Source: Candidatus Methylomirabilota bacterium
Lineage (GTDB): Bacteria > Methylomirabilota > Methylomirabilia > Methylomirabilales > Methylomirabilaceae
DNA: 34,271 nt
Direction: 5' to 3'
NCBI GenBank assembly: GCA_016207095.1
Contig: JACQQF010000099.1
Span: 1 to 34,271, forward strand
This document shows positions 2,955 to 13,514 of this stretch, one piece after another. Below the pieces are notes generated by a model. That model ran no database searches. It was not told the origin of the DNA and saw only the letters and a program-made list of their open reading frames with translations. A program made the position numbers and the translations under genes. Position 1 is the first letter of the stretch; each line of letters starts with the position of its first letter.

Positions 2955-3038
2955 TGGCAACGAGGCGACGGGCGGCCAATGGTGACCGCAGGCGCGTCCC
3001 GAAAATGCAATGGGACACATGCTGAGGAGGAGAGAGCG

Positions 3039-4580
3039 ATGTTAGGACGGATAGATTTCAAACGGTTCATGGTGGTAAGCCTGACGGCCGTGATGTTGCT
3101 TGGCTTGGCAGGCCCTCTCTTGGCCGAAGAGGCTGCAGCTCCCGGCGCGGCAGCACCTGCCGCCGCCGTGAGCTTCACCAAAGAGATGGCTGATGCCATC
3201 AAAGATTACAAGATCGCGATGGACACCATCTGGGTGCTGGTAACGGCCTTCCTGGTCTTCTTCATGAACCTCGGCTTCGCCATGGTCGAGTCGGGGCTCT
3301 GCCGGGCCAAGAACGCCGTCAACATCCTCTCGAAGAACTTCATCGTCTTCGCCATCTCCTCCCTGGCCTTCTATATCGTCGGCTGGGGGCTGATGTTCGG
3401 AGATGGCACGGGGCTCCTCGGCCTCAAGGGCCTGTGGTTCGTCAATGGGGCCGACAACAGCCCTGCCATGGGTGACGCCTACCAAGGCGTCTATAGCGCC
3501 ATCAACTGGACCGGTGTCCCGATCTGGGCGAAGTTCTTCTTCCAGCTCGTCTTCGCTGGGACGGCGGCCACCATCGTCTCCGGGGCGGTGGCGGAGCGGA
3601 TCAAGTTCGGCTCGTTCATCGTCTTCTCATTCGTGATGGTGGGGATCATCTACCCGGTGGTCGGACACTGGGTGTGGGGCGGCGGGTGGCTGCAGAAGCT
3701 GGGAATGTGGGACTTCGCCGGCTCCACCGTGGTTCATTCGGTCGGTGGTTGGGCGGCGCTGGCCGGCATCATCATGCTCGGCCCGCGGATCGGAAAGTAC
3801 ACAAAGGACGGCAAGGTCAACCCGATCCCTGGCCACAATATGACATCCGCCACGATCGGCTGCTTCGTGCTCTGGTTCGGGTGGTTCGGCTTCAATCCCG
3901 GCAGCACCATGGCCGCCTCCTGGGGCGATATCGCCAGAATCGCCGTCACCACGAACAGCGCGGCGGCTGCGGCGGCCTTTAGCGCCACCCTCGCCGCCTG
4001 GTTCACGCTTGGGAAACCCGATCTCTCGATGACGCTCAACGGTGCTCTCGCTGGGCTCGTGGCAATCACCGCTCCCTGCGCCTTCGTCAGCGTCGGCAGC
4101 TCCGTGATCATCGGCTTGATCGCCGGGGTTGTGGTGGTTTCTGCGGTCCTTATGTTCGACAAGGTCAAGATCGACGATCCCGTTGGAGCCACATCCGTCC
4201 ACTTGGTATGCGGAATCCTCGGCACCCTGTTCATCGGGCTCTTTGCCCAGGACTCCATCATGCCCAAGACGACCGGAAATGGGCTCTTCTTCGGCGGGGG
4301 GTTCACGCTGCTCAAAGCCCAAGCGATCGGCGTGGTCGCCGCGGGCGCTTTCACCTTCGCCATCTCTCTGGCCGCTTGGGCGCTCATCAAGATGGTTATG
4401 GGGATCCGGGTGAGTGCCGAGGAAGAGCTGGAAGGTCTCGACTACGGCGAGCACGGCATGACCGCCTATCCCGACTTCCAGATGACTACAAGCTCGCTCG
4501 GGACAGGTCGCCCGGCGTCAGCCGCCGGATATCAAATGGCCGCGGTGGGAGTACCGAAGAAGGCCCCAGCGCACCAATAG
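3039..4580 (+). CDS. amt: Ammonium transporter (Amt/MEP/Rh family)
   Basis: 513 residues from the ATG at 3039, chosen because of the GAGGAGGAGAG Shine-Dalgarno just before it; an upstream in-frame start at 2979 lacks one. A cleavable signal peptide (about 1-29, ending PLLA) and an Ala/Pro linker precede eleven predicted membrane segments. Family signatures are visible: AMVESGLCRAKN, AGTAATIVSGAVAER, the pore histidine in STVVHSVGGW, WFGWFGFNPGS, and the second pore histidine in SVHLVCGILGTL. Amt proteins conduct ammonium through a twin-His pore. A cytoplasmic tail follows HGMTAYPDF. No glnB/glnK gene is adjacent. It is followed 22 bases later by the ANTAR regulator gene, so the two are probably co-transcribed. 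Confidence 0.96.
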   Translation: MLGRIDFKRFMVVSLTAVMLLGLAGPLLAEEAAAPGAAAPAAAVSFTKEMADAIKDYKIAMDTIWVLVTAFLVFFMNLGFAMVESGLCRAKNAVNILSKNFIVFAISSLAFYIVGWGLMFGDGTGLLGLKGLWFVNGADNSPAMGDAYQGVYSAINWTGVPIWAKFFFQLVFAGTAATIVSGAVAERIKFGSFIVFSFVMVGIIYPVVGHWVWGGGWLQKLGMWDFAGSTVVHSVGGWAALAGIIMLGPRIGKYTKDGKVNPIPGHNMTSATIGCFVLWFGWFGFNPGSTMAASWGDIARIAVTTNSAAAAAAFSATLAAWFTLGKPDLSMTLNGALAGLVAITAPCAFVSVGSSVIIGLIAGVVVVSAVLMFDKVKIDDPVGATSVHLVCGILGTLFIGLFAQDSIMPKTTGNGLFFGGGFTLLKAQAIGVVAAGAFTFAISLAAWALIKMVMGIRVSAEEELEGLDYGEHGMTAYPDFQMTTSSLGTGRPASAAGYQMAAVGVPKKAPAHQ

Positions 4581-4602: not shown

Positions 4603-5217
4603 ATGCGCAGAAGGGTGGTGATCATCGACGATAGCGCCCGATCCCGAGTCGCACTCGGCGCGGCGATCAAAGGGTTCGGGTGTGAGATAGCGGGAGAGGG
4701 AGTAAACGGCTCTGAGGCGATTCACCTCGCCCAAGATTTGAAGCCCGATGTGCTCTTCCTCGCAGTGGGCCTCCCGGAGATGGACGGCGTAACTGCGGCC
4801 GCCCAAATCCTGGAGGCCCACCCCCTCCCGATCATCATCCTGAGCAGCCACCTCGATCCCGACCTCATCCAACGAGCAAAGGAAGCCGGCGTGATGGCCT
4901 ACCTGGCGAAGCCGCTTCGGGAGGAAGATCTGCTACCAGCCATCGAACTCGCGGTCTCCCGTTTCCAGGAGTTCATGGCGCTACGAAAAGAGAACGAGGA
5001 TCTCAAGCGCACCCTCGAGGGGAGAAAGGTGATCGAGCGCGCAAAGGGTGTCCTCATGGAGCGGGAAAAGATCTCCGAGCAGCAGGCCTTCACGCAGATT
5101 CAACGAGCCAGCATGAATACGAGGCGGCCTATGACCGAGATCGCCCAGGCCATACTGCTTAGTGAGCAGGTTGGCGGAAGATCGCAGGAACGAGACGGCG
5201 GCAGAGGGCCGGGCTGA
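4603..5217 (+). CDS. nasT: NasT-like ANTAR antitermination regulator with a pseudo-receiver
   Basis: 204 residues: receiver domain (about 4-120), coiled-coil linker (FMALRKENEDLKRTL, about 125-142) and a C-terminal ANTAR RNA-binding domain (about 143-195, RKVIERAKGVLMEREKISEQQAFTQIQRASM). ANTAR proteins bind paired hexaloop hairpins in leader RNA and prevent termination. The receiver keeps the acidic pair D9-D10, the LSS switch residues and the AKP lysine, but the site expected to hold the phospho-acceptor aspartate (LFL-A54-VGLPEMDG) is alanine, codon GCA at 4762. It is therefore probably not phosphorylated and is more likely controlled by a partner, as AmiR is by AmiC and NasT by NasS. No nasS-like gene lies beside it. 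The nearest target is the nirA leader 480 bases downstream. Confidence 0.9.
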   Translation: MRRRVVIIDDSARSRVALGAAIKGFGCEIAGEGVNGSEAIHLAQDLKPDVLFLAVGLPEMDGVTAAAQILEAHPLPIIILSSHLDPDLIQRAKEAGVMAYLAKPLREEDLLPAIELAVSRFQEFMALRKENEDLKRTLEGRKVIERAKGVLMEREKISEQQAFTQIQRASMNTRRPMTEIAQAILLSEQVGGRSQERDGGRGPG

Positions 5218-5220
5218 CAG

Positions 5221-5672
5221 AGATTGCCGCGGAACATACCAAGTGATCTCAATGCGCTGATGCCCCTCCCAAGGCAAGAAGCGCGCATGGGCGCCGTTCA
5301 CGCACTGGACGGCGCCCATGGTTGTTTTCGCCCTGCACCCAAGTTAGCTATGAACTGCCACCGCCCTTCAGCACGCCGCCAGCCTTCACTGTAACGACCG
5401 GGCGGCCCACAGGAGCGCATGTGTCGGGCTTCGATGGCATGATCTCTCTGCGACGATTTTGCTCATTCGAACTGGGAACTGCACATCAGCGAAGCAGGCC
5501 TGTTCCGCTGCTGGTTGACAAATTTGTTGGCGGCCGACGGTCCTGTCGGATACCACCAACATCGATTCACTGACGCGCGAGACACGAACCTCCTCAAACT
5601 ATCGAGGATTGCCAGGTACTTATCCCCACAAACCACCTCATGCTCCGCCGGTTGTCTGACACGGCAGGGCGA
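5221..5672. other. Intergenic region between nasT and the nirA leader
   Basis: About 450 bases without a convincing gene. It holds the nasT terminator (5286-5328). A weak NtrC-like dyad, TGCACATCAGCGAAGCA at 5480-5496, has the right 17-base length with matches 5/6 and 4/6 in its halves; it would lie about 210 bases before the inferred nirA transcription start. The rest shows nothing I can support. Confidence 0.4.
5286..5328 (+). terminator. Intrinsic terminator after nasT
   Basis: A perfect 12-bp stem, CATGGGCGCCGT (5286-5297) with ACGGCGCCCATG (5309-5320), encloses an 11-base loop and is followed by GTTGTTTT. It ends the amt-nasT unit and separates it from the nirA leader. Confidence 0.85.
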
Positions 5673-5689
5673 TTGGCCCGAATCTTGAT
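5673..5689 (+). promoter_or_regulatory. Sigma-54-like promoter of the nirA operon
   Basis: TTGGCCCGAATCTTGAT matches the sigma-54 consensus TTGGCACG-N4-TTGCT except for two positions: A to C in the -24 box and C to A in the -12 GC. Spacing from the -24 GG to the -12 G is correct. The predicted start, about 12 bases past the -12 element, falls near 5699, exactly where the first leader hairpin begins. The altered -12 GC is a real weakness of the match. Confidence 0.5.
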
Positions 5690-5698
5690 AGTCTTGTT

Positions 5699-5747
5699 GC
5701 TCTGAGCGAGTCAAGAGCGTATGGCCAGCGGCAGTGACGCCGTCGGC
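5699..5747 (+). promoter_or_regulatory. ANTAR-target dual-hairpin leader RNA
   Basis: Two adjacent hairpins five bases apart. P1 (5699-5718): GCTCTG pairs with C-A-AGAGC with one bulged A, and its loop AGCGAGT has A at position 1 and G at position 4 (seven bases, or five if the A-U pair closes). P2 (5724-5747): nine-position stem GCCAGCGGC/GCCGTCGGC with one A-C mismatch and one G-U, closing the hexaloop AGTGAC, again A1 and G4. Paired hexaloops with A1 and G4 are the known ANTAR recognition signature. A terminator follows ten bases later, and an ANTAR regulator is encoded just upstream. Confidence 0.8.
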
Positions 5748-5756
5748 AAACCGGCA

Positions 5757-5799
5757 AAGGCGCCGTTTCCCAAAGACGGGACGGCGCCTTCGTATTTTT
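5757..5799 (+). terminator. Attenuator terminator in the nirA leader
   Basis: A perfect 10-bp stem, AAGGCGCCGT (5757-5766) with ACGGCGCCTT (5781-5790), is followed by CGTATTTTT. It ends 22 bases before the nirA start codon, so it would stop most transcripts before the operon unless overridden. Its place directly after the dual hairpin marks it as the regulated terminator of an ANTAR antitermination switch. Confidence 0.85.
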
Positions 5800-5821
5800 A
5801 ATCCTCCATACGGGAGGTGAG

Positions 5822-7315
5822 ATGAACAAGATCGAGGAGTACAAGCTAGAGAAGGACGGCCTCGATGCCGGCAAGGAGATCGAGACGTTCGCCGAGCAGG
5901 GCTGGAAGGCCATCTCTGAGAGCGACGTTGAACGGCTCAAGTGGCACGGCCTGTTCCTCCGCAAACATACTCCCGGCTTCTTCATGATGCGGATCCGGAT
6001 GTCGAATGGGATCGCAACCTCGGACCAGGCTCGCTGTCTTGGCCGAATCTCGAACCAGTTCGGTCGAGGGATCATGGATATCACCACCCGCCAGCAACTG
6101 CAGCTCCGCTGGATCCGTATCGACGACGCCCCCGAGATCCTGAGTCGGATGCACGATGCAGGGCTCACCAGTCTCCAGACCGGCATGGACAATATCCGGA
6201 ACGTGGTCGGGTGTCCGGTGGCCGGGATCGGCCGGGACGAACTGCTCGACGCCTCGCCCGTAGTGCATCGGTTCACCTCGATGTTCGTCGGCAACCGGGC
6301 ATTCACCAACCTTCCCAGGAAGTTCAACGTCACGATTACCGGTTGCACGCTGAACTGCACGCACGTGGAGGGCCAGGACATCGGACTCACCGCAGCGACG
6401 AAGGAGATCGACGGCGAGCGGGTCCCGGGATTTAACGTCCAGGTCGGCGGGAAGATGGGATCGGGCGGCTACCGGTTCGCGTCGCCGCTCGACCTGTTCG
6501 TCCGACCCGAGGAGGCGGCCGATCTGTGCGCATCGATCGCGCTCATCTACCGCGACCACGGTCCACGGCAGGCGAGGGCAAGGGCCCGCTTGGCCTTCCT
6601 GATCGATGAGTGGGGGCCGGACCGATTCCGAGACGAATTGGAACGACGGGTCGGACACCCGCTCCACAGGGCCGGAACCGATGCGCGAGCCGACCAGTCC
6701 ACCGATCATATCGGCATCTACCGACAGAAGGAGGACGAGGTCAACTACGTCGGCCTTTCCGTCCCGGTCGGCCGAATCACCGCCGACCAACTGTTAGAGC
6801 TTGCCCGTCTCTCCGACGAATACGGCCGCGGGGAGTTCCGCTTCACCGTCGGACAAAACGTCATCATCCCCCACGTCCCCGACAAGCGACTGGGCGAGTT
6901 CCTCGCCGAACCGCTGCTGCAGACGTTCCGCTACGACCCGGATGAGATAACGCGAGGCTTCGTTACCTGCACCGGCATCGACTACTGCAACCTGGCCCTG
7001 ATCGACACCAAGGCCCGCGCCCTCGAGGTTCTAAACGTGCTGAAGGCGAAGCTCACGAATGTCCAGCCGATCAACGTGTACTGGTCCGGCTGCCCGGCCG
7101 GCTGCGGCAACCATCAGGCGGCCAACATCGGGCTCCAGGGAGCCAAGGTCCGGATCGACGGCAAGGTGGTCGAGGCGGCTCACATCTTCGTAGGCGGGCG
7201 ATCGGGACCGAAGCCGCAAGTCGGCCAGATGATCATGGCCGACGTCCCCTGCGACAAGCTCGCCGGGGTCTTGGAGGGGTTCGTCCAGTTCTACCCGAGG
7301 AAGCCGCGACCATGA
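5822..7315 (+). CDS. nirA: Assimilatory ferredoxin-nitrite reductase
   Basis: 497 residues, close to the usual NirA length. The enzyme reduces nitrite to ammonium with six electrons from ferredoxin, using coupled siroheme and [4Fe-4S] centres in the cytoplasm. It has two ferredoxin-like half domains and the siroheme/cluster cysteines C383-x5-C389 (TCTGIDYC) and C424-x3-C428 (SGCPAGCGNHQ), plus the basic siroheme-binding segment RQQLQLRWI. The related sulfite reductases share this fold; assignment as nitrite reductase rests mainly on the operon, which continues with nitrate transport and nitrate reductase. GGGAGGTGAG precedes the ATG. Its leader contains the antitermination switch, so it is the first gene under that control. 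Confidence 0.95.
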   Translation: MNKIEEYKLEKDGLDAGKEIETFAEQGWKAISESDVERLKWHGLFLRKHTPGFFMMRIRMSNGIATSDQARCLGRISNQFGRGIMDITTRQQLQLRWIRIDDAPEILSRMHDAGLTSLQTGMDNIRNVVGCPVAGIGRDELLDASPVVHRFTSMFVGNRAFTNLPRKFNVTITGCTLNCTHVEGQDIGLTAATKEIDGERVPGFNVQVGGKMGSGGYRFASPLDLFVRPEEAADLCASIALIYRDHGPRQARARARLAFLIDEWGPDRFRDELERRVGHPLHRAGTDARADQSTDHIGIYRQKEDEVNYVGLSVPVGRITADQLLELARLSDEYGRGEFRFTVGQNVIIPHVPDKRLGEFLAEPLLQTFRYDPDEITRGFVTCTGIDYCNLALIDTKARALEVLNVLKAKLTNVQPINVYWSGCPAGCGNHQAANIGLQGAKVRIDGKVVEAAHIFVGGRSGPKPQVGQMIMADVPCDKLAGVLEGFVQFYPRKPRP

Positions 7316-7367: not shown

Positions 7368-8663
7368 ATGAGTATGACCGGAAGACGACAGACGCGAGAG
7401 CGTCCCCGGATGAACACGATCGCTCGACGTGATTTTCTGAAGATCTCAGGAGGCTCGGCGCTCGGCCTGCTCCTGGCCGGCCTCCCTAGAGGATGGGTTG
7501 GTGGCGCGTACGCAGCGGATGCGCCCGAGACGCCGAAGATCCGGTTCGGCATCATCGCGCTGACCGATTGTTCATCGATCGTGATGGCCCACGAGCTGGG
7601 CCTATTCAGGAAATATGGAATCGACTCGACGATTTCGAAGGAGGCGTCTTGGGCGGTCATCCGCGACCGGCTTTCCCTGGGGGAAAATCAGGCCACGCAT
7701 ATGCTCTACGGTATGCCTTACGCCTCGACGATGGGGCTTTTCGGCTCGCCGAAGAAGCCGATGATCATCCCGTTCGTCATCAACCGGAACGGCCAGGGTA
7801 TCACCCTGAAGAAGGAATTAGTGGCGAAAGGGGTCAGGACTCCTCAGGCTCTTAAGCCGATGGTGGACGAGGCGAAGAAAAAGGGCCAACCGATGACCTT
7901 TGCCATGACCTTCCCTCCAGGCACCCACGCGATGTGGATGCGCTACTGGCTGGGGGCGGGAGGGATCAACCCGGACAAAGATATCTCACTCATCACGATT
8001 CCGCCGCCTCAGATGGTCGCGAACATGAAGGTCGGAAAGATGGATGGCTACTGCGTCGGCGAACCCTGGAACGCCCGAGCCGTGTTCGATAAGATCGGCT
8101 ACACCGTGATCAGTAGCCAGAGGATCTGGAAGGACCACCCGGAAAAAGTCCTGGGCATGGCGGAGGAGTTCGCCGAGAAGAACCCGAAGACCGTCAGGGC
8201 CATTCTCCGTGCGATGATTGAGGCCAGCCGGTATATCGACAAGATGGAGAACCGAGAGAAGGTGGCCAAGATCGTCTCCAGGCCCCAGTATATCAATACG
8301 GCGAAGGAGGTGATTCTCTCCCGCTTACAGGGGAAATACGACTACGGGGACGGAAGGCCGATCGAACAAGATCCCTTATACATGACATTCTACGTCCGTC
8401 GCACGAACTTTCCATGGAAGTCCCACGGCGTCTGGTGGCTCTCCCAGTTCAGGCGGTGGGGAATGGTGAGTGAACCACCAGACTATAAGGGGCTCGTCAA
8501 CCGGGTGCACCGGCCCGACCTCTTCAAACAGGTCGCCAAGGAGATGGGTCTCAGCCTCCCCGACGGTGATTACAAGAAAGAGGTCCTCTTCGATGGTGTG
8601 CCTTTCAATCCTCATAAGCCCGAAGAGTACGCGAAGAGCTTCCCTGTGAATAACGTCGCCTGA
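7368..8663 (+). CDS. nrtA: ABC nitrate transporter, periplasmic substrate-binding protein (NrtA-like)
   Basis: 431 residues. The N terminus carries a Tat-type signal (ARRDFLKISGG, about 21-31, then a hydrophobic stretch ending near AYAAD), so the folded protein is exported; in cyanobacteria NrtA is instead a lipoprotein. The mature part has the NrtA/CmpA features: IALTDCSSIVMAHELGLFRKYGI, SWAVIRDRLSLGE, the THMLYGMPYAST loop and the TFPPGTHAMWMRYWL segment, where this family binds nitrate. AGGAGG lies before the ATG at 7368; a second in-frame ATG at 7410 would still keep the twin arginine. Nitrate rather than nitrite or bicarbonate as ligand is inferred from the operon. Its stop overlaps the first possible nrtB start (TGATG). 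Confidence 0.93.
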   Translation: MSMTGRRQTRERPRMNTIARRDFLKISGGSALGLLLAGLPRGWVGGAYAADAPETPKIRFGIIALTDCSSIVMAHELGLFRKYGIDSTISKEASWAVIRDRLSLGENQATHMLYGMPYASTMGLFGSPKKPMIIPFVINRNGQGITLKKELVAKGVRTPQALKPMVDEAKKKGQPMTFAMTFPPGTHAMWMRYWLGAGGINPDKDISLITIPPPQMVANMKVGKMDGYCVGEPWNARAVFDKIGYTVISSQRIWKDHPEKVLGMAEEFAEKNPKTVRAILRAMIEASRYIDKMENREKVAKIVSRPQYINTAKEVILSRLQGKYDYGDGRPIEQDPLYMTFYVRRTNFPWKSHGVWWLSQFRRWGMVSEPPDYKGLVNRVHRPDLFKQVAKEMGLSLPDGDYKKEVLFDGVPFNPHKPEEYAKSFPVNNVA

Positions 8664-8680
8664 TGGAGGAGATGACGACG

Positions 8681-9454
8681 ATGCGGAAGAGTTTCGACTG
8701 GTCGATGGTGATCGCGCCGGTTCTTGGGGGTTTGGCGATGCTGATCCTCTGGACCGTGGTGAGTCAGTTCATCTCCCCGGACCTCCCTTCGCCCGTAAAA
8801 ACCTGGAAGGAGAGCCAACTGTATGTGCTCCGACCGTTCTTCAAAGAAGGAGAGATGAATCAAGGGATGGGTCGGTTGGCGTTTTACAGTCTCGTACGCG
8901 TGGCCAAGGGATATTCCCTTGCCGTCCTGATCGGGACACCCGTCGGGTTTCTCCTGGGGCTCTCCCGAGTGTTCGCAAGGGCCTTCGACCCCATCATCCA
9001 GGTCCTGCGGCCGATCTCCCCCTTGGCCTGGCTGCCGCTGGGCCTGATCCTCTTCCGCGCATCCGAGCCTGCCGGGATCTTCACCATCGCCGTGTGCGCG
9101 ATGTGGCCCACCGTACTGAACACGGCCATGGGTGTGCGCAGCGTCAATGTGGACTACCTGAACGTCGGGCGCGTTCTCAAGCTGTCGCGCACGAAGATGC
9201 TGACGAAGATCATCGTGCCCGCCACCCTCCCCTATATGTTCACCGGGTATCGGCTGAGTCTGGGCTTAGCCTGGCTGGTGATCGTCGCCGCCGAGATGCT
9301 CACCGGCTCTCCCGGCGTCGGGGGCTTTCTCTGGCAGGAGTACAACAGCCTCGTGTATTCCCACATCATCCTCGCTATCCTGACGATCGGCTTCGTCGGT
9401 TTCCTGCTCGATCGGCTCATGGGGGTGGTGGAGCGGCGGTTCAAAGCCGCCTGA
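8681..9454 (+). CDS. nrtB: ABC nitrate transporter permease (NrtB-like)
   Basis: 257 residues from the ATG at 8681, which has GGAGGAG nine bases upstream; an ATG at 8663 overlapping the nrtA stop is possible and would add six residues. About six membrane segments are visible. The EAA loop, which contacts the ATPases, is at VGRVLKLSRTKMLTKIIVPATLPYMFTGYRLSLG. This is the BPD_transp_1 permease type found in nitrate, taurine and sulfonate importers. Two such subunits would form the channel with the two following ATPases. Nitrate specificity is inferred from context. Confidence 0.94.
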   Translation: MRKSFDWSMVIAPVLGGLAMLILWTVVSQFISPDLPSPVKTWKESQLYVLRPFFKEGEMNQGMGRLAFYSLVRVAKGYSLAVLIGTPVGFLLGLSRVFARAFDPIIQVLRPISPLAWLPLGLILFRASEPAGIFTIAVCAMWPTVLNTAMGVRSVNVDYLNVGRVLKLSRTKMLTKIIVPATLPYMFTGYRLSLGLAWLVIVAAEMLTGSPGVGGFLWQEYNSLVYSHIILAILTIGFVGFLLDRLMGVVERRFKAA

Positions 9455-9477
9455 CCGATGGGAGGCAAGCACAACAT

Positions 9478-10329
9478 ATGAGCATCCTCGAACTGCGTCA
9501 CGTCTCGAAAGGCTTCCCCAGTCCGAACGGGCCCCGGCCGGTCCTGCGGGACATCTCGCTGACACTGGAAGAGGGGGAGTTCGTCTGCCTGCTCGGTTTC
9601 TCGGGTTCCGGCAAGACGACCCTCATCTCGATGGTCGCGGGTCTGCTTGGGCTCGACAAGGGCGAGATCCTGCTTGACGGAAAGCCGATCGAGGGGCCGG
9701 GACTGGACCGGGGCGTGGTCTTTCAGAACTATTCGCTCCTGCCGTGGATGACCGTCTTCGAAAACATCCACCTTGCGATCGACGCAGTGGCGCCCGAACT
9801 CACCCCGGCAGACAAGAAGGCGCGGGCCGAGCAGTTCATCGGGCTCGTCAACCTCGGAGATGCCGCCTGGAAACGGCCGCGAGAGCTTTCCGGCGGGATG
9901 CGACAGCGGGTGGCCGTGGCACGTGGTCTCGCCATGAATCCGAAGATCCTCCTGCTGGATGAGCCGTTCAGCGCCCTCGATGCCCTCACTCGCGCCACGT
10001 TGCAATGGGAACTGGCTCGGATCTGGACCGAGACGAAGAAGACCGTGCTGATGATCACCAACGACCTGGACGAGGCGATCTTTCTTGCGGACCGAGTCTA
10101 TCCGCTCCTGCGGGGTTCCGCATCGAGGGGCGCATCGACGCTCGGCCCCGCGATCCCGATCCCGATCCCCCGGCCGCGCTCCCAGCGTCTCAGCCTCAAC
10201 CCGGAGTATCAACGGGCGCGGAAACAGATCCTGGAGTGTCTCATCAGTGGAGCCAACGGGTCCGTCCATGCGACGCGACCCACAGAGATCCAGGCAGCCC
10301 TCGGCGATCCCTGTCCGGCCAAACCATAA
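9478..10329 (+). CDS. nrtC: ABC nitrate transporter ATPase, first copy (NrtC/NrtD-like)
   Basis: 283 residues from the ATG at 9478 (GGGAGG upstream, MSILELRHVSKGF). Walker A is GFSGSGKT (40-47), the Q-loop FQNYSLLPWMT, the signature LSGGMRQRVAVARGL, and Walker B ILLLDEPFSALD. The switch (H-loop) position reads MITNDLDEA, with N195 where most ABC ATPases have histidine. The paired ATPase downstream keeps THDVDEA, so the dimer may be asymmetric. Unlike cyanobacterial NrtC there is no C-terminal NrtA-like domain; the tail after 215 is a short proline/basic extension. A longer open frame reaching back to 9094 is only a shadow of nrtB. Confidence 0.92.
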   Translation: MSILELRHVSKGFPSPNGPRPVLRDISLTLEEGEFVCLLGFSGSGKTTLISMVAGLLGLDKGEILLDGKPIEGPGLDRGVVFQNYSLLPWMTVFENIHLAIDAVAPELTPADKKARAEQFIGLVNLGDAAWKRPRELSGGMRQRVAVARGLAMNPKILLLDEPFSALDALTRATLQWELARIWTETKKTVLMITNDLDEAIFLADRVYPLLRGSASRGASTLGPAIPIPIPRPRSQRLSLNPEYQRARKQILECLISGANGSVHATRPTEIQAALGDPCPAKP

Positions 10330-10344
10330 GGAGGGGCAGACAGA

Positions 10345-11295
10345 TTGGGTGCGCTCCTAGAGTTGACTCAACTTGGCAAGACCTATCAGACCCCGGCCGG
10401 TCCTGCGGTCATCGTCCGTGATTTCAACCTCCGGGTGGGCCACGGCGAGTTTGTCTGTATCATCGGCCACTCCGGATGCGGCAAATCGACCGTCCTGTCG
10501 ATCCTGATGGGCCTGATCGACCCCACGGAGGGCGGCGTCATCCTCGCGGGCAAGGAGGTGACCGGTCCAGGCACGGACCGGGGCGTTGTCTTTCAATCCT
10601 CCGCCCTCCTTCCCTGGATGACGGCCAGGGAGAACGTCCTCCTTGCGCTCGAAGAGGTGAACGCGCATTTGAACGCGAGCGAGCGGCGGAACCTGGCCGA
10701 CGGCTACCTGAAACAAGTCGGCCTTGACGAGATTACCGAGAGCTATCCCGACGCCCTTTCGGCCGGGATGCGTCAGCGGGTCGGTCTCGCCAGGGCCTTC
10801 GCCCTGGAGCCGAAGCTTCTCCTGCTCGACGAACCATTCAGCCTCCTCGACGCCATGACCCGGATGGAGCTTCAGGAGGAGCTCATGCGGTTGTGGGGGA
10901 AAGACCGAAAGACCGTCGTCATGGTGACCCACGATGTGGATGAGGCGCTCCTGCTCGCCGACCGAATCGTGATGATGACGAGCGGACCAGCCGCCACCGT
11001 CGGCGAGATCATGAAGGTCCCGTTCCCGAGACCCCGCCATCGAGCAACGGTTGCCGATCATCCCGAATACTACCGGCTCCGCGATGCGCTCCTCGCCTTT
11101 CTCGAGCGCCAGACCTGTGAGGCGCCGTCCGTCAACGAGTGTGATGGGCCACCGTTCGATCCCTATCTCGGCGAGCCGGAGGAGGCCAAGGTGGAACGAC
11201 CTCCCCTCGTAGCCGAAGAGGAGCTGGCGGTCGTGGAGAGGTATACCGGTTTGAACCGGTTCCGGGCCCGCTTCCGGAGGGAGGGCGCGTCATGA
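10345..11295 (+). CDS. nrtD: ABC nitrate transporter ATPase, second copy (NrtD-like)
   Basis: 316 residues from a TTG at 10345, supported by AAGGAGGGG eight bases upstream. Walker A is GHSGCGKST (41-49), the Q-loop FQSSALLPWMT, the signature LSAGMRQRVGLARAF (A replaces the first G), Walker B LLLLDEPFSLLD, and the H-loop VTHDVDEA with its histidine present. After the nucleotide-binding domain there is an acidic extension of about 70 residues (CDGPPFDPYLGEPEEAKVE onward) with no recognised domain. It would pair with the first ATPase to drive NrtB. Its stop overlaps the narB start by four bases (ATGA). Confidence 0.93.
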   Translation: MGALLELTQLGKTYQTPAGPAVIVRDFNLRVGHGEFVCIIGHSGCGKSTVLSILMGLIDPTEGGVILAGKEVTGPGTDRGVVFQSSALLPWMTARENVLLALEEVNAHLNASERRNLADGYLKQVGLDEITESYPDALSAGMRQRVGLARAFALEPKLLLLDEPFSLLDAMTRMELQEELMRLWGKDRKTVVMVTHDVDEALLLADRIVMMTSGPAATVGEIMKVPFPRPRHRATVADHPEYYRLRDALLAFLERQTCEAPSVNECDGPPFDPYLGEPEEAKVERPPLVAEEELAVVERYTGLNRFRARFRREGAS

Positions 11296-13514
11296 CCATG
11301 AAGCCGAAGGATCTGGCCCTGCCGATCCATTCATCGGACAACGGGGGGACAATCGACCGTTGGCAGAAATCTTACTGTCCCTATTGCGGCGTCGGCTGCG
11401 GTCTAATCGTCGGCCTGAAGGGCAACACCGTCGTCAAGGTCAATGGCGATCCGGACCACCCGGCCAACTTCGGCGAGATCTGCGCCAAGGCGGTCTTCCT
11501 CTCGCGGACCGTCGCCACGCCCGACCGCCTTCTGTATCCTCAGGTCCGGCCTCGGCGGGACTCACTGCTGGTCAGGGTGTCGTGGAAACAGGCCCTCGCG
11601 CGAGCCGCGACCGCATTTCGGGAGATCATCTCGCGGCACGGGCCGGACGCCGTCGCCTTCTATGGCTCGGGGCAGCTCACCACCGAGGAGTACTACATTT
11701 TCAACAAGCTGGCAAAGGGGTTCCTTGGCACGAACAATTTCGATACGAACTCCCGCCTGTGCATGGCGAGCGCCGTGTCAGGCTACCGCTCCTCTCTCGG
11801 ATCGGACGGCCCACCCGCCTCCTACGCCGATATTGACCTCGCCGAGTGCTTTCTGCTGATCGGAACGAACACCGCGGAGTGCCACCCGATTATCTTCCGG
11901 CGAATCGAGCGGCGCAAGCGAAGCGATCCGAATAAGGTCACCGTGATCGTCGTCGACCCACGGCGAACCGAAACCGCCGACGTGGCCGACCTCCACCTGC
12001 CGATCCGACCCGGAACCGACATCGCCCTGATCAATGCGATGCTCCATGTGATCGTGAGGGAAGGGCTTGCAGACCGAAATTTCATCGATGGTCACACGCA
12101 CGGCTGGGAGGACCTTGCGGCGATCGTCGATCGCTACACCCCCCAGTACGCGCACGAGATCTGCGGCGTTAGCCCCAGCCTGATAGAGCAGGCAGCCCGC
12201 AGTTTCGCGACCTCGAGCGGCTCGCTCATCCTCTGGAGCATGGGGATCAACCAGAGCACGGTGGGAGTCCGAAAGAACAATGCCCTGATCAACCTGGCAC
12301 TGGCCACCGGGCAGATCGGCCGCCCCGGTGCCGGTCCCTTCTCGCTCACCGGGCAGCCGAACGCCATGGGCGGGCGCGAGGTGGGTGGCTTGTCGCACTT
12401 ATTGCCCGGCTACCGCTCGGTCACGAACCCACAGGACCGCGCCGACGTGGCGGCGCTATGGGGCGTGCCCGCGACCCACCTGTCACCGAGGCCGGGATAT
12501 CCCGCAATCGAAATCTTCGAGGCGCTGGCCGACGGGAAGGTCAAGGCGGTCTGGATCCTCTGCACGAATCCGATCGTCTCAATGCCGGAGCCCGACATGG
12601 TGGAAAAGGCGCTTCGACAAGCCGAGCTGGTCGTCGTTCAGGACGCCTACCACCCAACCGACACGACCCAATATGCCGACATCCTCCTGCCGGCCGCCCA
12701 GTGGTCGGAGAAAGAAGGGGTGATGACCAACTCGGAGCGGAGGATCACCTATATGCCGAAGCTCATCGATCCGCCGGGCGAGGCGCTGCCCGATTGGGAG
12801 ATCGGCGCGCGTTTCGCCGGTGAGCTTGGGCTTCACGCGGCATTCCCTTATCGCTCGGCCGGTGAGGTCTTTGAGGAATTCGCCCGCTGCACCAAGGGGC
12901 GATTCAACGACTACTCAGGGGTCAGCTACGCACGCCTGAAGGAGGGGCCACTGCAATGGCCCTGCCCTGACCCGGCCCACCCCGGGACCGAGCGACTCTA
13001 CACCGACGGCAAGTTCCAGACGGACGATGGCCGCGCCCGGTTCATATCGGTCGATCACCAGGAGCCCCATGAGAGGCCGGACGACGACTATCCCATCACG
13101 CTGATGACCGGGCGGCTGAAGAACCAGTGGCACACGATGACGAAAACCGGGAAGGTGGAGAGCCTGCTCAAAAGCGGCCGGGAGCCGTTCGTCGAGATCC
13201 ATCCGCAGGACGCCGCAAAGATCGGTGTCCAGGACGGCGACTTCGTCGAGGTGACCTCGCGACGGGGAAAGGCCATCGCGCAGGCGCGGGTCACGGAAGA
13301 GATCGTGCGCGGGACCTGTTTCATGCCGTTCCACTGGGGACGGGCCGCAGGGTACTACAAGGCGGCCAACAATCTCACGCTGCGAGCGCGGGATCCCGTC
13401 TCGCGCCAGCCCGAGCTGAAGGCGTGCGCGGTCCGAATCACCCGGATCGAGGAGATCGGCCTGGAACCCGCCTTGCCCGTCTGCGACGCATCGGCGGCAG
13501 GCCCAAGGCCATGA
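11292..13514 (+). CDS. narB: Assimilatory nitrate reductase, molybdopterin catalytic subunit (NarB/NasA)
   Basis: 740 residues. It reduces nitrate to nitrite in the cytoplasm, with a bis-MGD molybdenum centre and one N-terminal [4Fe-4S] cluster. The cluster motif is C29-x2-C32-x3-C36-x27-C64 (YCPYCGVGC... GEICAKA). The molybdenum-ligand cysteine is C157 in SRLCMASAVSGYRSSLGSDGPP. The C-terminal molybdopterin dinucleotide-binding domain begins near ITLMTGRLKNQWHTMTKTGK. Length and the lack of a C-terminal [2Fe-2S] or flavin domain match the cyanobacterial ferredoxin-type NarB rather than the longer Klebsiella NasA. There is no twin-arginine signal, consistent with a cytoplasmic enzyme. It is the last gene of the operon. 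Confidence 0.95.
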   Translation: MTMKPKDLALPIHSSDNGGTIDRWQKSYCPYCGVGCGLIVGLKGNTVVKVNGDPDHPANFGEICAKAVFLSRTVATPDRLLYPQVRPRRDSLLVRVSWKQALARAATAFREIISRHGPDAVAFYGSGQLTTEEYYIFNKLAKGFLGTNNFDTNSRLCMASAVSGYRSSLGSDGPPASYADIDLAECFLLIGTNTAECHPIIFRRIERRKRSDPNKVTVIVVDPRRTETADVADLHLPIRPGTDIALINAMLHVIVREGLADRNFIDGHTHGWEDLAAIVDRYTPQYAHEICGVSPSLIEQAARSFATSSGSLILWSMGINQSTVGVRKNNALINLALATGQIGRPGAGPFSLTGQPNAMGGREVGGLSHLLPGYRSVTNPQDRADVAALWGVPATHLSPRPGYPAIEIFEALADGKVKAVWILCTNPIVSMPEPDMVEKALRQAELVVVQDAYHPTDTTQYADILLPAAQWSEKEGVMTNSERRITYMPKLIDPPGEALPDWEIGARFAGELGLHAAFPYRSAGEVFEEFARCTKGRFNDYSGVSYARLKEGPLQWPCPDPAHPGTERLYTDGKFQTDDGRARFISVDHQEPHERPDDDYPITLMTGRLKNQWHTMTKTGKVESLLKSGREPFVEIHPQDAAKIGVQDGDFVEVTSRRGKAIAQARVTEEIVRGTCFMPFHWGRAAGYYKAANNLTLRARDPVSRQPELKACAVRITRIEEIGLEPALPVCDASAAGPRP

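Follow-up and report, generated by a model that had tools for sequence, protein, structure and literature searches.

The nirA locus

The window, the whole stretch of DNA analysed here (34,271 nucleotides), is one complete contig of a 2.9-Mb draft genome (103 contigs; genome label G000), and its host is probably a relative of the nitrite-dependent methane-oxidising bacteria. A BBP2 porin, amt, a receiver-ANTAR regulator, a leader, nirA, nrtA, nrtB, nrtC, nrtD and a narB-like reductase follow one another in this order:

1599-2954, + strand: BBP2 porin (Pfam PF07642)
2979-4580, + strand: amt ammonium transporter (Pfam PF00909), directly upstream of the regulator
4603-5217, + strand: receiver-ANTAR regulator, acceptor Asp replaced by Ala54 (PF00072 and PF03861; alignment with Rv1626 and EutV)
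5674-5688, + strand: sigma-54-like box TGGCCCG-N4-TTGA (consensus match; recurrence in relatives; rpoN in the genome)
5724-5747, + strand: P1, first ANTAR hexaloop hairpin (loop 5733-5738, AGUGAC, closed by C5732:G5739)
5752-5765, + strand: P2, second ANTAR hexaloop hairpin, CGGC[AAAGGC]GCCG (loop 5756-5761, AAAGGC, closed by C5755:G5762)
5757-5799, + strand: intrinsic terminator and T-run (5757-5765 with 5782-5790; 5768-5771 with 5778-5781; T-run 5795-5799)
5803-5817, + strand: small hairpin CCTCC-ATACG-GGAGG, putative cover of the nirA Shine-Dalgarno sequence
5822-7315, + strand: nirA, ferredoxin-nitrite reductase, first gene of the operon (PRK09566, 566.6 bits against a cut-off of 594)
7368-13514, + strand: nrtA, nrtB, nrtC (start uncertain), nrtD and narB-like nitrate reductase (domain and profile matches)

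A preliminary description of this DNA had placed an ANTAR protein just upstream of the leader, and the two domains of the protein at 4603-5217 bear this out. Eleven genomes of the same genus have the regulator (the window counted), and in 10 of them amt lies immediately 5′ of it; 2 of these 10 adjacent amt genes are a 42%-identical paralogue. Upstream of the porin-amt-ANTAR genes there is a 62-aa winged-helix-like ORF (1216-1404), about 75 nucleotides ahead of which lies another sigma-54-like box (1127-1141, 10/11); a small protein with weak similarity to the product of this ORF (30% over 54 aa) follows a leader in G066 (L149). The hairpin at 5803-5817 has identical arms and a different loop in G011.

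Anatomy of the leader

Both loops of the window leader, AGUGAC in P1 and AAAGGC in P2, have A at position 1 and G at position 4 and are closed by a C:G pair. P1 is more stable than its shuffles (z = −2.61), P2 by itself is ordinary (z = −0.82), and the terminator (−23.2 kcal/mol, z = −4.65) is by far the most stable element of the leader. The stem of the terminator (5757-5790) is formed by 9 bp, a UU bulge and 4 bp, not by the perfect 10 bp described before, whereas the terminator itself, the T-run and the gap of 22 bases between T-run and nirA stand as described. Termination may be leaky, because the T-run starts four bases off the stem. P2 spans the 5′ arm of the terminator, and since the shared arm 5757-5765 pairs in both structures, P2 and the terminator are mutually exclusive. 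The fold energies are −20.7 kcal/mol for P1 with P2, −6.2 kcal/mol for P2 alone and −23.2 kcal/mol for the terminator alone; by these values the terminator is predicted to prevail unless something keeps P2 closed. An RNA ending at 5767, in which the 3′ arm of the terminator is not yet made, folds to P1, P2 and a weak 5′ hairpin.

We scanned 5640-5800 for C:G-closed hexaloops with a purine at position 1 and G at position 4 and found three hairpins, at 5728, 5752 and 5768. When both strands of the whole window are considered, this locus is the only place where two C:G-closed RNNGNN hexaloop hairpins, each with a stem of 4 bp or more, stand at ANTAR spacing, and in dinucleotide shuffles of 5640-5800 (n = 2000) two such hairpins (stem of at least 3 bp) at that spacing arise in 1.55%. 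The leader thus shows the sequence features of an ANTAR dual-hexaloop antiterminator: tandem hairpins, both with 3 bp or more, C:G-closed A1/G4 hexaloops, exclusion of a terminator, and an ANTAR protein in the genome.

The terminator tip (5768-5781) is itself an ANTAR-type hexaloop, UCCC[AAAGAC]GGGA. Some ANTAR-type hexaloop hairpin is found downstream of P2 in 18 of 60 leaders against 2.06 in plain shuffles. True apical loops of this kind are present in 3 of 60 leaders and in 2 of 208 control terminators, and because this excess reaches only P = 0.076, we do not claim a third hexaloop.

Conservation and covariation

Besides the window, there are 30 nirA loci in the class (L005-L034), of which 13 carry a similar leader directly upstream, 16 have none there and one (L032) lacks the gene start. 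These 13 leaders and that of the window, chosen by eye, make up a seed alignment of 14. Two-sided changes are found in 8 of the 11 pairs of P1 and P2, with 92.2% of the cells paired, and in 4 of the 8 pairs of the terminator. Taking the shuffle figures not as probabilities (the structures were chosen with the sequences in view, and the shuffles ignore relatedness), the covariation score of P1 and P2 is 0.468 against 0.173 in shuffled alignments (0/500 reach it), with all five measures above the 500 shuffles and the slid controls, and that of the terminator pairing of the shared arm is 0.339 against 0.187 (0/500), with three of five measures above all 500 shuffles and two weak ones (65/500 and 31/500 reach the observed value). 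P1, P2 and the terminator are therefore conserved in relatives, and the presence of an ANTAR-type attenuator ahead of nirA, as first described, is well supported by this comparison.

Both P1 and P2 keep their C:G closing pair in all 14 seeds, 4 of which have a P1 pentaloop or a P1 loop without G4. We then considered the loops of 61 leaders, read at fixed columns of a model that leans to these letters and including the near copies G007 and G014. Position 4 of P2 is G in 61/61, a conservation that is not independent, because this G also pairs in the terminator; position 1 is A in 39, G in 20 and C in 2. Of the 61 leaders, 43 have a P1 hexaloop on a stem of 3 bp or more, 38 of them with G4, 21 with A1, 21 with G1 and one with C1. 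Among the 47 non-seeds, G4 is found in 47/47 P2 loops and in 28 of 32 P1 hexaloops. Unlike G4, which is general in P2 and usual in P1, A1 is not general in the relatives. Either purine at position 1 is compatible with ANTAR binding, because the protein contacts G4 and not A1 in the EutV-RNA structure as described in PMC8934654. One leader, L166, belongs to the loop count of 61 and is left out of the promoter and third-hexaloop counts of 60.

Distribution and target genes

A covariance model (R1) built on P1 and the terminator was run over 95 genomes of the class and over 388 relatives taken to include all 95. At E ≤ 0.01, the leader is found in 38 of the 95 class genomes (14 are seed sources, which leaves 24 of 81 others) and in 8 of the 293 genomes outside, about 3 of which are expected from the E-value alone. 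Antisense matches over the same terminators were left out (four in alignment A2, one in A5); also left out of A2 were G011:C85, which lies after a gene, and the chance-like matches G079:C160 and G023:C83. Ten genomes (G047, G053, G054, G058, G059, G076, G077, G080, G086 and G089) have a leader 5.7-6.0 kb before nirA.

The same leader type precedes other genes as well. It is found before nrtA in G047 and G062 (by Pfam) and in G066, G067 and G090 (by eye), before P-II in G019 and G026, before a BBP2 porin in G027, and before a formate/nitrite transporter in the Nitrospirae loci L189 and L190; a weak match (E = 0.003) precedes a urea-type ABC transporter in G057 (L090; gene judged by eye). The genes downstream of the leaders in G044, G066:C357 and G033 and of the first match in G062 are without a nitrogen-metabolism assignment.

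Among the nirA loci of named genomes, 26 of 80 have a sense match that was taken as a leader (E from 3.5e-14 to 0.08). Thirteen of these are Rokubacteria (6 seeds), the order Rokubacteriales being assigned to Methylomirabilota in PMC8780371, and 13 are MAGs labelled Deltaproteobacteria, Syntrophobacter, Nitrospirae or Nitrospirales, some with weak matches. The Rokubacterial leaders might be taken to have one hexaloop, an interpretation that was dropped when an overlapping second hairpin was found. The leader adjoins an ANTAR gene in the window, in G011, G087 and G027, and in Deltaproteobacterial loci such as L159 and L173. In one Deltaproteobacterial MAG (L158), three leaders (833-896, 1147-1215 and 2640-2708) lie downstream of a single ANTAR gene, the last of them before nirA.

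The model found no match at E ≤ 1 in Poribacterial nirA loci, though many have an ANTAR gene near nirA, and it did not detect the Sinorhizobium NasT leader. Many of the Poribacterial loci L194-L237 have a divergent ANTAR gene just 5′ of nirA, and the acceptor position of its product is usually Gly. An Rfam search gave no match above the gathering score for the window leader and none for its relatives.

Exchange of nirA and nirB in the genus

Ten of the 15 genomes of the genus have a nirB match that exceeds the family cut-off, the nirA carriers G000 and G011 not being among them. The regulator is found (E = 1.1e-80 or better) in 11 of the 15, all with nirA or nirB; of the four genomes without it, only G012 has nirB. 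Eight of the 10 nirB carriers have the leader before nirB, in G001, G005, G008, G010 and G013 by the whole-genome search and in G004, G007 and G014 by targeted searches only (E from 0.0006 to 0.0045). The exceptions are G012, where the contig begins inside the gene, and G006, whose nirB region (L238, G006:C1:733100-734300) keeps a sigma-54 box and has no leader by the model. By eye, part of the P2/terminator region seems to be missing in G006 when compared with G008. A 97-aa C-terminal piece of nirA (L035:14780-15070) is located about 8 kb downstream of the G006 regulator.

The regulator and its signal

The regulator, the only ANTAR protein found in the draft genome, aligns with Rv1626 (1s8n, E = 3.9e-43) and with EutV (6wsh, E = 1e-33). 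With the RNA-contact residues of EutV taken from the EutV-RNA structure (PMC8934654), R142, K143 and M172 are kept, Y164 is replaced by Phe163 and K147 by Arg146. The acceptor Asp is Ala54 in 16/16 aligned class sequences, a count that covers 16 of the 30 regulator loci, and alanine is also found in 7/7 leader-adjacent regulators of the named-genome set, whereas Sinorhizobium NasT keeps Asp. Since the usual aspartate is an alanine here, its phosphorylation cannot be the input signal.

A separate cytoplasmic NasS, NrtA-like and without a signal peptide, was not found in the draft genome, whose single PF13379 protein, NrtA, carries a twin-arginine-like N-terminus. Likewise, no NIT domain was found in G000, and the regulator is of the receiver-ANTAR and not the NIT-ANTAR type. 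Across the genus, PF13379 is present in 3 of 15 genomes and NIT proteins in 12 of 15. Given the draft state of the assembly, a sensor may have escaped detection. Other regulators of this family are controlled by protein partners: AmiR, likewise a pseudo-receiver, through contact with AmiC (according to PMC8934654), and NasT by NasS (according to PMC3795266). As a tentative proposal, to which we attach rather low confidence, these genes could form a distinct nitrogen regulon, in which an ANTAR clade with a fixed Ala acceptor, encoded beside amt and without NasS or NIT-ANTAR, would receive nitrogen status through protein contact (perhaps with Amt or P-II) rather than by nitrate sensing, regulator and leader having been kept through the exchange of nirB for nirA.

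A model for antitermination

The two hairpins, the terminator that overlaps the second of them, their conservation and covariation, an ANTAR domain with the main RNA-contact residues of EutV, and recurrence before nitrogen genes are all observed here. We predict from the sequence that the leader (5700-5821) works by ANTAR-dependent antitermination and controls nirA and, judging from gene order, nrtABCD-narB as well, with a probability of about 0.86. For regulator binding, read-through, promoter choice and signal, we infer the following course. The RNA would start at the sigma-54 promoter or arrive by read-through from the amt-ANTAR genes. With the regulator inactive, the terminator at 5757-5790 would form and stop transcription before nirA. 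Once active, the regulator would bind the C:G-closed A1/G4 hexaloops of P1 (5724-5747) and P2 (5752-5765); with P2 held closed, the terminator would lose its 5′ arm and the polymerase would read on. The hairpin at 5803-5817 over the nirA Shine-Dalgarno sequence is possibly an additional, putative layer of control.

The sigma-54-like box at 5674 matches 9 of 11 consensus letters, with a good −24 part and TTGA as its −12 part, which the preliminary description had rightly called imperfect. By the usual spacing from such a box, the transcript presumably starts near 5700; this is about 24 nucleotides before P1 and not at the first ANTAR hairpin as had been proposed, while the box itself is upheld. 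Boxes of 9/11 are no more frequent in the window than expected (10 on both strands, 9.7 expected), with a chance rate of about one per 7 kb of strand. What lends the window box weight is its recurrence: 41 of 60 related leaders carry a box of at least 9/11 within 90 nucleotides upstream, where mononucleotide shuffles predict 0.47. Most of these boxes are 23-35 nucleotides before the motif; that of the window is 48 nucleotides before, like those of G004, G007 and G014 (score 8). A predicted sigma-54 promoter for the nirA leader is plausible, and rpoN is present in the genome.

The same switch could instead be fed by read-through from amt-ANTAR or by another promoter. The chance rate of a single 9/11 box, its imperfect −12 part and the absence of a good box (score 5-6 of 11) from the leaders that adjoin an ANTAR gene (G011, G087, L159 and L173) all fit such a source, and we regard it as unlikely but not negligible: the ANTAR gene ends more than 450 nucleotides before the box, the box is 148 nucleotides before nirA, near the 119-144 nucleotides of 11/11 Rokubacterial (f7) nirA leaders, and the three nirB leaders of the genus mentioned above share the 48-nucleotide spacing.

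It is considerably less probable that the structure is a plain insulating intrinsic terminator, or an attenuator run by a non-ANTAR factor, with incidental hexaloops. The terminator does far exceed the other leader elements in stability, and for 19 of the 26 named loci with a leader the examined stretch contains no ANTAR gene (for 7 it does). However, P2 covaries independently of its terminator partner, G4 is kept in most P1 hexaloops of the non-seeds, one leader type precedes different nitrogen genes, and the leader stands next to an ANTAR gene in the window and in the other genomes and loci named above.

The layout first proposed, an ANTAR pair at 5699-5718 and 5724-5747 with a separate terminator overlapping neither, is highly improbable, for although the 5699-5718 hairpin can form and is present in the minimum-energy fold, it has z = −0.60 (53 of 200 shuffles fold as well), a bulge and a loop that is not a C:G-closed hexaloop, no counterpart was seen by eye in the related leaders inspected, P2 at 5752-5765 covaries instead, and an extra hairpin upstream of the motif has no room where the box is 23-35 nucleotides away, as in most boxed leaders. 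Of that pair, 5724-5747 remains an ANTAR hairpin, as P1 and not as the second one; the true P2 had been missed. The worry over a seven-base P1 loop disappears likewise, because what was taken as the second hairpin is in fact P1, the terminator shares sequence with the true P2, and 5699-5718 is not conserved.

Comparison with known systems

The antiterminator is ordinary in kind and well supported, with its anatomy corrected. What is new is the class in which it occurs, the regulon, the exchange of reductases behind one switch, and a regulator without a recognised sensor. A well-defined antitermination switch is thereby extended to a class with Rokubacteria and, by inference, nitrite-dependent methane oxidisers, and the fixed anatomy permits the design of point mutants, the decisive hairpin being 5752-5765. 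We found no open-licence paper containing both whole words ANTAR and Methylomirabilis.

The eut leaders controlled by EutV, as described in PMC3369931 and PMC8934654, are alike in their tandem A1/G4 hexaloop hairpins, in a P2 that overlaps an intrinsic terminator, and in nitrogen-metabolism targets. They differ in that EutV has the acceptor Asp54, phosphorylated by EutW, where the regulator here has alanine, and in that loop position 1 is A in the eut leaders and A or G in those studied here (21 A and 21 G of 43 P1 hexaloops). The Klebsiella NasR-nasF system shares C:G-closed A1/G4 hexaloops and a terminator before nitrate assimilation genes, and selection experiments with NasR gave the C:G closing pair, A1 and G4 (both as reported in PMC7496416). 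The likeness to nasF noted in the preliminary description accordingly stands for the RNA and fails for the sensor: NasR is a one-component NIT-ANTAR protein, whereas this genome yielded no NIT domain, and its sole PF13379 protein carries an export signal.

NasS-NasT leaders, described for Paracoccus nasA (PMC3795266) and in Bradyrhizobium (PMC6759348) and represented here by the Sinorhizobium locus L107, are similar in having a receiver-ANTAR regulator, hairpins with a terminator, and nitrate/nitrite assimilation genes; L107 also has a sigma-54-like box. In L107 a NasS-type gene adjoins nasT, which keeps its Asp, whereas no NasS-type gene was found here, and the present regulator sits with amt and a porin, unlike NasS-NasT. 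The consensus of the Rfam narK RNA (RF03032) consists of GGCACA..UUGC, a 7-bp hairpin with the loop AACGGC closed by C:G, and then ACGACAAAGACGUCGC. The last part can fold as CGAC[AAAGAC]GUCG, which gives the same plan of box, P1 and P2 as in our leader, while the Rfam structure line leaves the P2 part unpaired. Against RF03032, the window leader scores 16.1 bits, under the gathering score of 43.2, and the Sinorhizobium leader 26.5 bits, also below it. No open-licence paper naming both 'narK RNA' and ANTAR was found. The consensus suggests that narK RNA is itself an ANTAR leader, with a second hairpin that Rfam does not draw, and it looks like a proteobacterial NasT leader.
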